Positions 55,931 to 60,405 of a stretch of 64,000 bases of DNA are shown here, one piece after another. The notes under the pieces were generated by a model. That model had not been told where the DNA came from, made no database searches, and saw only the letters and a list, made by a program, of their open reading frames with translations. The position numbers and the translations under genes are program-made. Each line of letters starts with the position of its first letter. The stretch's first letter is position 1. Source of the stretch: Alphaproteobacteria bacterium (GTDB taxonomy: Bacteria; Pseudomonadota; Alphaproteobacteria; Reyranellales; Reyranellaceae). The DNA lies in NCBI GenBank assembly GCA_016870115.1, contig VGCH01000003.1, forward strand, positions 104,364 to 168,363, written 5' to 3'.

Positions 55931-56908
55931 ATGACCTTACTTTCCCGCCGTCACGCGCTGATCGCCGGAGGAGCCTCGATGCTGGCGCCCGGTCTCGCGC
56001 GCGCTCAGGCCGCCTGGCCGACGCAGCCCGTCAGCTTCGTTGTGGGCTACGCCGCCGGCGGTGGCGCCGACATCATGGCGCGCGAGCTCGGCCACATCAT
56101 GACGCCCCTGTTCGGCCAGCAGATCGTGGTCGAGAACAAGGGCGGCGCGGCCGGCGCGATCGGCGCGCGCCACGTCTCCAACGCCAGGCCGGACGGCAAC
56201 ACCCTCTTCTATGCCGTCTCGACCAACGTGGTCACCAATCCGCACGTGCTGAAGACGTCGATCGACACGCTGGCCGGTCTGGTGCCGATCATCCAGACCA
56301 CCGACTACCAGTACGTTCTCGCGGTCAATCCCGACGTGCCCGCGAAGAACGCGGCCGAGCTGATCGCGCTCGCCAAGAAGGACCCTGGCAAGCTCACCTT
56401 CTCGTCCTCGGGCGTGGGCGGCAACAACCATCTCTCGGGCGCGCTGTTCGCCGACGTGACCGGCATCAAGATCACCCACGTGCCCTATCGCGGCACCGGA
56501 CCCGCGCTGGCAGACGTGTTGTCGGGTGTGATCACCATGAACTTCTCCTCGCTGCCGCCGGCGGTGGGCCAGATCAAGGCCGGCAAGCTGAAGGCGCTGG
56601 CGGTCACCGGCGAAAAGCGCGTGAGCTCGCTGGCCGACGTTCCGACGCTCAAGGAGCAGGGCATCAACGTCGCGATCACCGGATGGCACGGCCTGTTCGC
56701 GCCCCCCAAGACGCCCGACGCGATTCTCGACCGGGTGCACAAGGACGCCACCACGGCGATCAAGGATCCGAAATTCGCCGCGGCGCTCGCCAAGGACGGT
56801 CTCGAAATGCCGCCGCTGCAGAGCCGCGCCGACTTCACGAAGTATGTCCGCGACGAGCACGCCTTCTGGGGCAAGAAGCTGAAAGAGCTGAACATCCAGC
56901 CCGAGTGA
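55931..56908 (+). CDS. tctC: Tripartite tricarboxylate transporter (TTT/Bug) substrate-binding protein
   Basis: A 325-residue periplasmic receptor of the TctC/Bug family. It has a signal peptide with a twin arginine (LSRRHALIAGGASMLAPG, cleavage near ARAQA) and then family landmarks WPTQPVSFVVGYAAGGGAD, IVVENKGGAAGAIGA, VPYRGTGPAL and GWHGLFAPPKTP. It binds carboxylates for the TctAB membrane transporter, which is not in the window. AGGAGG sits before ATG 55931; an ATG seven codons upstream was rejected. Confidence 0.94.
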   Translation: MTLLSRRHALIAGGASMLAPGLARAQAAWPTQPVSFVVGYAAGGGADIMARELGHIMTPLFGQQIVVENKGGAAGAIGARHVSNARPDGNTLFYAVSTNVVTNPHVLKTSIDTLAGLVPIIQTTDYQYVLAVNPDVPAKNAAELIALAKKDPGKLTFSSSGVGGNNHLSGALFADVTGIKITHVPYRGTGPALADVLSGVITMNFSSLPPAVGQIKAGKLKALAVTGEKRVSSLADVPTLKEQGINVAITGWHGLFAPPKTPDAILDRVHKDATTAIKDPKFAAALAKDGLEMPPLQSRADFTKYVRDEHAFWGKKLKELNIQPE

Positions 56909-56917
56909 CGGACCGGA

Positions 56918-57472
56918 CTACGCCCGGGGCGGCACCACGCAGAAGCCCTGCGCCTCGATGCCGAGCGCGGGGTTGAACTTCGAGCGCAAATTCTCGAGCG
57001 CGATGACCGCCGTCAGCTCGACGATCTGGCCGTCGCTGTAGTGCCGCTTGAGGCGCGCGACGAGCGCGTCGTCCACCCGCTGGTCCGTGAAGGTGATGCG
57101 CTCGGCGTACTCCAGCGCCAGTCGCTCGGCCTCGCTGAACAGCGCGCTCTCGCGCCACGTCGCGACCTCGGCCAGCTTGGCGAGGCCCGCCTCGTCAGCG
57201 TCCAGCACACGGCTGGAATTCATATCAATTCAAAAGGGACAGCCGTTGATCGTGGCGACCCGCACGTTGAGGAGCGGCGGCAGGGCGCGCGGCAGCAGCC
57301 CCGATTGCTCGATCGATGCCCCCATGAGCTTGATCGCCCGCAGGATCGGCGGGCAATGCGCCATGACCCGCGTCGAGTTCAGGAGCCCGCCGAACAATTC
57401 CCGCTCCTTGGCGAAGATCGTCGCAAGCGTGGGATCGCCGCCGTCCTCCTCGATTTCGCGCACCCGGGCCAT
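56918..57472 (-). CDS. Carboxymuconolactone decarboxylase/AhpD-family selenoprotein candidate with in-frame UGA (Sec81)
   Basis: 184 codons read as one protein if the TGA at 57232-57230 encodes selenocysteine. Before it comes NVRVATINGCPF, after it IDMNSS; Cys-family members have CPFCIDM here, so Sec81 replaces the second Cys of the redox CxxC (Cys78-Pro-Phe-Sec81). Both halves keep one frame and normal family sequence up to VVPPRA, with no other damage. GAGGAGG precedes ATG 57472. A SECIS-like hairpin follows the TGA at 57201-57217. Likely role: thiol/peroxide reduction or alkylhydroperoxidase-type activity. It lies 93 bases after serA on the same strand. The alternative is a nonsense mutation of TGC/TGT. 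Sec machinery is not in the window. Confidence 0.78.
57201..57217 (-). promoter_or_regulatory. Bacterial SECIS-like hairpin
   Basis: Minus-strand RNA: UCCAGC-CGUGU-GCUGGA, a perfect 6-bp stem with a five-base loop. The stem begins 12 bases after the UGA and the loop 18 bases after it, with G as second loop base. From memory, the bacterial SECIS model asks for a loop 16-37 bases from the UGA with a G in the first two loop positions; this fits. The bulged U of the E. coli fdhF element is not seen. Confidence 0.65.
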
Positions 57473-57565
57473 GGTCCCTCCTCGATTTCGGTCGTCCCAC
57501 GATAGGCCGGCGATGCCTCGCTCGTCCGGAGTATCTTGCACCCCGGGTCGCCGACGCTGGCAGGG

Positions 57566-60296: not shown

Positions 60297-60405
60297 CGAC
60301 CTCTCCCTTCCAGAAGAGCTGCACTCCGGTGGGGGAGCGTGGCCCGCCGCCCCTATACGGAGGGCGCCGGCGGGCGTCAATGCGGCCGCGATGTCGCGGT
60401 CGAGC

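Follow-up and report, generated by a model that had tools for sequence, protein, structure and literature searches.

The locus studied here raises the question of whether the TGA that splits a continuous reading frame is a stop or a selenocysteine (Sec) codon. The window, that is the whole 64,000-nucleotide stretch of contig VGCH01000003.1 that was analysed, contains a frame on the minus strand whose sole interruption is a TGA at codon 81 and whose terminator is TAG (Table 1). The initial annotation had described this frame as undamaged; its coordinates were right and only the strand had been left unstated. With UGA read as Sec, the product has 184 residues: MARVREIEEDGG...VRVATINGCPF-U-IDMNSSRVL...QGFCVVPPRA. 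As the annotation had also stated, a ribosome-binding site (GGAGGG) stands before the upstream Met only. Mechanical ORF calling reported two ORFs of 103 and 101 amino acids at the gene, the very split that had been foreseen. On the evidence set out below, an intact single redox enzyme should be expected from this gene, the frame of which would be halved by standard gene finding.

Table 1. Coordinates of the selenoprotein gene and its elements in the window
Feature	Position	Strand	Evidence
Selenoprotein gene, CMD/AhpD fold, 184 aa + TAG stop, Sec at residue 81	56918..57472	minus	frame, Pfam, orthologues, AlphaFold
UGA codon as selenocysteine U81, second redox position of CxxU	57230..57232	minus	frame, orthologue and homologue comparison
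Cys78 codon, opening residue of CPFU motif	57239..57241	minus	frame, alignment
Shine-Dalgarno-like GGAGGG ahead of ATG at 57472	57476..57481	minus	window sequence; relatives compared
Bacterial SECIS upper stem-loop UCCAGC-CGUGU-GCUGGA	57201..57217	minus	covariation, folding

First, the conservation of the UGA codon was investigated. When 76 genomes from the same order were searched, nearly every member of the family yielded a close, near-full-length orthologue, each with exactly one internal TGA and no other stop, and the motif NGCPFU was found in all 67 orthologue loci extracted from this order. In a scan of 84,980 species, which covers partly the same genomes, UGA was present in all of the best 80 of 154 matches. 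Beyond the order, the codon was carried, again within NGCPFU and with no other stop, by other Alphaproteobacteria and by MAGs labelled Betaproteobacteria, Burkholderiales and Rokubacteria. The carriers include the isolates R. massiliensis, R. soli, R. aquatilis, Enhydrobacter aerosaccus ATCC 27094 and Vineibacter terrae; since genera with cultured members carry the gene, the selenoprotein is directly testable. No relatives were found in the viral contigs searched, and plasmids held only forms less than 60% identical.

The exchange of UGA for Cys at this column, which had been anticipated, was indeed observed. In the samples of the class (385 genomes) and of the phylum (398 genomes), sequences above 59% identity were UGA forms only and full homologues below 50% identity had Cys. 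Homologues at 35-47% identity mostly carry Cys at the Sec column, in agreement with the earlier assignment of the UGA to the second Cys of Cys homologues. In the tree, a long, fully supported branch separates the CPFU clade from the YnjA-like Cys clade, L112 being a Cys form. No sampled Cys row lies inside the CPFU clade, apart from the outlying rows L114 and L116, whose placement is unsafe (branch length 4.75). The CPFU subfamily thus appears to be Sec-only among the best 80 of the 154 scan matches. We also compared the two sides of the UGA in 65 pairings with the window gene. Mean pS/pN was 0.52/0.18 on the 5' side and 0.44/0.19 on the 3' side; these similar values show that the part following the stop is under purifying selection similar to that on the part preceding it.

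The second element examined was the hairpin that follows the UGA and that had been reported as SECIS-like, with its loop 18 nucleotides away and G as second loop base. Both features were confirmed. The hairpin starts 12 nt past the UGA and consists of a 6 bp stem and a 5-nt loop in which the G at position 2 is followed by U. It is the minimum free energy structure, with -8.6 kcal/mol for 39 nt and -7.9 for the hairpin alone. Folding had been proposed as a check. The bacterial SECIS model allows a loop of 3-9 nt, a stem of 4-16 bp, a G within the first two loop positions, a spacing of 16-37 nt and an MFE <= -7.5 kcal/mol (PMC13188914), and the window hairpin lies within all these limits. Some relatives' hairpins, taken alone, fold more weakly than -7.5. 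Folding of the single sequence was mildly unusual, with z -0.98 for 58 nt and z -1.84 for 39 nt, and the full stem of the window sequence had a P of about 0.036 under synonymous recoding. Single-sequence folding alone was judged insufficient for accepting the hairpin, and the case for a SECIS therefore rests on comparison across relatives.

This comparison gave a clear signal. Among 41 distinct sequences in the main register, 98.8% of the cells were paired, as compared to 82.7% in shuffles; two-sided stem changes numbered 36 against 8.6 expected, and the covariation score was 0.455 against 0.117. Sliding-partner controls gave 35-49% pairing. When both registers were considered, the complete 6-bp stem was found in 65 of 69 distinct sequences, whereas synonymous recoding of the same peptides retained it in 11% (at most 23% over 2000 trials). 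All 69 have G as the second base of the loop. Between subgroups, the stem varies as AGC/GCU, GUC/GAC, GCC/GGU, GCG/CGC, UUC/GAA, CUC/GAG and AUC/GAU, and some subgroups use a stem shifted by one base (GCAUCA-CGUG-UGAUGC). One sequence carries the loop GGUCU, which we take to be that of E. coli fdhF. What makes the SECIS so unusually clear is that the coding sequence yields to the RNA: joint changes at residues 87 and 90 of the protein preserve the helix. Overall, the aligned sequences identify the hairpin past the UGA as a bacterial SECIS, with middle stem bases that vary and pairing that is kept by two-sided changes. In one orthologue from a draft MAG (L083/L190, contig VBAF01000424.1), about 17 codons after the UGA are missing, SECIS included, as would result from an assembly error or a broken copy.

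The initial annotation had called for a search of the genome for the Sec machinery. In this genome of a Reyranellaceae relative (3.56 Mb in 59 contigs, 100% complete), selA (560.7 bits), selB (443.8 bits), selD (287 bits) and a tRNA-Sec whose anticodon is UCA (72.3 bits) are all present. Formate dehydrogenase FdnG, encoded close to selA, selB and tRNA-Sec, carries a UGA at its usual place (ARI-U-HGPTV). SelB scored above cut-off in 72 of the 76 genomes of the order. The single genome from another family of the order is without SelB, and only a distant, stop-free homologue was found there. Of 23 further chosen genomes, 19 had SelB above cut-off; the lack of a full selB in the other four is probably caused by incomplete assemblies. 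Two features of the Sec genes were observed in passing. The selD gene (L015, G000:C34) lies within a 792-codon frame, the N-terminal part of which is NADH-dehydrogenase-like; NDH-SelD fusions of this type had been described earlier (PMC2398784). Near a contig end, an integrase-like ORF (L013:87-1412) directly adjoins the tRNA-Sec gene (L013:1472-1567), an arrangement suggestive of an island that integrated at selC.

As for the neighbourhood, serC-serA lies just upstream on the same strand, and in many Reyranella loci the gene is flanked by serC-serA together with TctC and an FAD-oxidoreductase as a convergent pair. These neighbours are missing at the distant members inspected, where the adjacent genes offered no clue to function, and the neighbourhood was therefore given no weight for function. 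At Rfam gathering thresholds there was no match at the selenoprotein gene; the sole match was the serC leader RNA at serC (RF00517, 45.6 bits, window 60297-60349, minus strand).

Overall, because the UGA is conserved, the SECIS covaries, both halves are under purifying selection and the Sec machinery is present, the locus is better explained by a selenoprotein than by a pseudogene or by two genes. The in-frame stop is very probably a genuine selenocysteine codon. We are close to certain that the gene is a functional selenoprotein gene in which UGA81 would be read as Sec within a 184-residue predicted enzyme of the CMD/AhpD fold; the candidate put forward initially is thus upheld. From these computed features we infer a course for Sec insertion and enzyme action. 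SelB with Sec-tRNA-Sec would bind the hairpin just past UGA81, and selenocysteine would be inserted as the second residue of the CxxU redox pair. Sec81 would be the residue attacking an oxidised substrate, Cys78 would resolve it as a selenenyl-sulfide, and recycling would be ensured by cellular thiols or a thioredoxin-type reductant. The conserved Cys40 is a possible further thiol.

We then asked which chemistry the protein may perform. PF02627 (carboxymuconolactone decarboxylase) was matched with 38.2 bits, above its gathering cut-off of 23. The AlphaFold model is all-helical with a pLDDT of 95, and within the PDB its fold comes closest to those of PA0269, peroxidase-related proteins, D. radiodurans AhpD and debrominase Bmp8. 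In 21 aligned Sec members, H39, C40, G77, C78, P79, U81, D83, N85, E160 and C178 are invariant. The most likely role suggested by these data is that of a thiol/selenol redox enzyme, either peroxidase or disulfide reductase, and peroxidase-type action appears about evenly balanced against other disulfide or organic-substrate chemistry. That the selenoprotein is no peroxidase at all, but a disulfide oxidoreductase of a general type or, like Bmp8, an enzyme with an organic substrate, is a serious possibility, somewhat short of an even chance. Indeed, the CxxCxxxH of AhpD proper, with its proton-relay His, is absent, the Sec members having CxxUxxxN with Asn85 in 21 of 21; the fold is common to Bmp8, and Cys40 and Cys178 are extra conserved cysteines. 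On the other hand, the structures that come nearest bear the names peroxidase-related or AhpD, which were given by annotation.

The selenoprotein reading was also weighed against other explanations of the stop. If the locus consisted of two separate short genes, as the mechanical ORFs would have it, the second would start at the internal ATG at 57223, three codons past the UGA. This ATG is without a Shine-Dalgarno-like site and occurs in the window sequence alone, the codon being ATC or ATA in 65 of 66 compared sequences. Moreover, the two halves jointly form one CMD fold, predicted with high confidence, and the CxxC/U active site straddles the stop. On these grounds the two-gene reading was dropped as highly improbable. 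We find it scarcely credible, too, that the UGA is read through in some other way, by a near-cognate Trp or Cys or under a reassigned code. Low-level reading of UGA by Trp-tRNA is a common occurrence. However, homologues have Cys, not Trp, at the column, the Sec system is complete and the SECIS covaries; in addition, TGA serves as an ordinary stop elsewhere, for instance at the end of TctC (56906..56908), and code reassignment was rejected accordingly. Least believable of all is that a CMD-family gene is decaying here into a pseudogene: seen in a single genome, a normal frame broken by one stop has the look of a fresh nonsense mutation, but the UGA conservation refutes this reading, the same stop occupying the same codon in every orthologue found (Alphaproteobacteria, Betaproteobacteria, Rokubacteria) with no other lesion, together with purifying selection on both halves and a SECIS that covaries.

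The selenoprotein reading adds an apparently unmodelled subfamily that standard annotation would split. Within it, residue 160 deserves attention. In alignment A4, covering two CMD clades, Glu160 is found in 23 of 23 Sec rows and Gln160 in 21 of 21 Cys rows. A functional coupling of Glu160 with Sec is possible, and the Sec-linked difference is a testable clue to the use of selenium by some CMD enzymes. Two Reyranellaceae genomes (L091:1959-2510 in G047 and L092:2022-2570 in G026) contain a second CMD lineage, distinct from the first, in which UGA occupies this same position. Its motifs are NGCEFU-MDAN and NGCPFU-QDVN, a stem GCUGCC-GUG-GGCAGC follows the UGA, and L090 is a close relative with Cys. 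Glu160 accompanies Sec in L091 and L092 and Gln160 accompanies Cys in L090, a lead from three sequences only.

Finally, the subfamily was compared with known systems. Marine data had already yielded AhpD-like selenoproteins with CxxU in 2005 and 2008 (PMC1088965, PMC2398784), which agrees with the earlier statement that they are a known class. The marine proteins (COG2128/TIGR01926, PF02627) have in common with the CPFU subfamily the CMD/AhpD fold, CxxU, a SECIS right after the UGA and Cys homologues. They differ in that the CPFU subfamily reaches only 36-46 bits against TIGR01926 (window protein 36.6, cut-off 81.8 for this peroxidase-related enzyme model), carries CPFU-[IMV]DIN, is Sec-only in the sample and occurs mainly in Reyranellaceae, Betaproteobacteria and Rokubacteria. 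'AhpD-like 1' or 'AhpD-like 2' of PMC2398784 may nevertheless include this subfamily. With the AhpD core domain TIGR00778 (cut-off 27.8), the window protein scored 25.5 and two Rokubacteria members 30.1 and 34.9. The best NCBIfam match, almost full-length, was NF053654 ('GroundWater_YciW, YciW-related (seleno)protein'), with 137.1 bits for the window protein and 128-156 for relatives, below the cut-off of 310. The second UGA lineage, L090-L092, scored 228-253, so that NF053654 is nearer to this paralogous clade than to the CPFU subfamily; a search of the class sample with this model found no further paralogues. The suggestion that the CPFU-IDMN subgroup might be undescribed stands in part: NCBIfam includes several models of this class, none of the full-length ones was reached at its cut-off by the window protein or the scored relatives, and no link of Reyranella or Rokubacteria to such a selenoprotein was found in the literature, but the wider CxxU class has been known since 2005. 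Tentatively, and with less than even confidence, we consider that these proteins form an undescribed subfamily which is obligate for Sec and distinct in catalytic design. It would combine CPFU-xDxN, the AhpD His being absent, with His39-Cys40, a clade-specific pair that may serve as third redox or ligand residue, and with Glu160 alongside Sec, versus Gln in Cys forms.

The closest Cys homologues are the YnjA-type CMD proteins, such as E. coli ynjA, at about 40% identity. They mostly share a C-x-F-C-[VI]-D-[IL]-N motif and the C-terminal GFC/GLC with the subfamily, and differ by Cys in place of Sec, mostly Arg39 and Ser40 in place of His-Cys, and Gln160 in place of Glu. Indeed, in 20 YnjA-like homologues, Arg39 and Asn85 were each found in 19, Cys40 in none and Gln160 in all, with Cys178 kept. 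At the level of structure, PA0269, Atu0492, D. radiodurans AhpD and Bmp8 (PDB 2ijc, 2gmy, 6k40, 6ohi) have the fold in common with the window protein (TM-score about 0.64-0.82 by query length) and the CxxC pair at the same position, with identities of roughly 20-29%. PA0269 and Atu0492 carry CxxCxxxH, whereas the CPFU subfamily carries CxxUxxxN.
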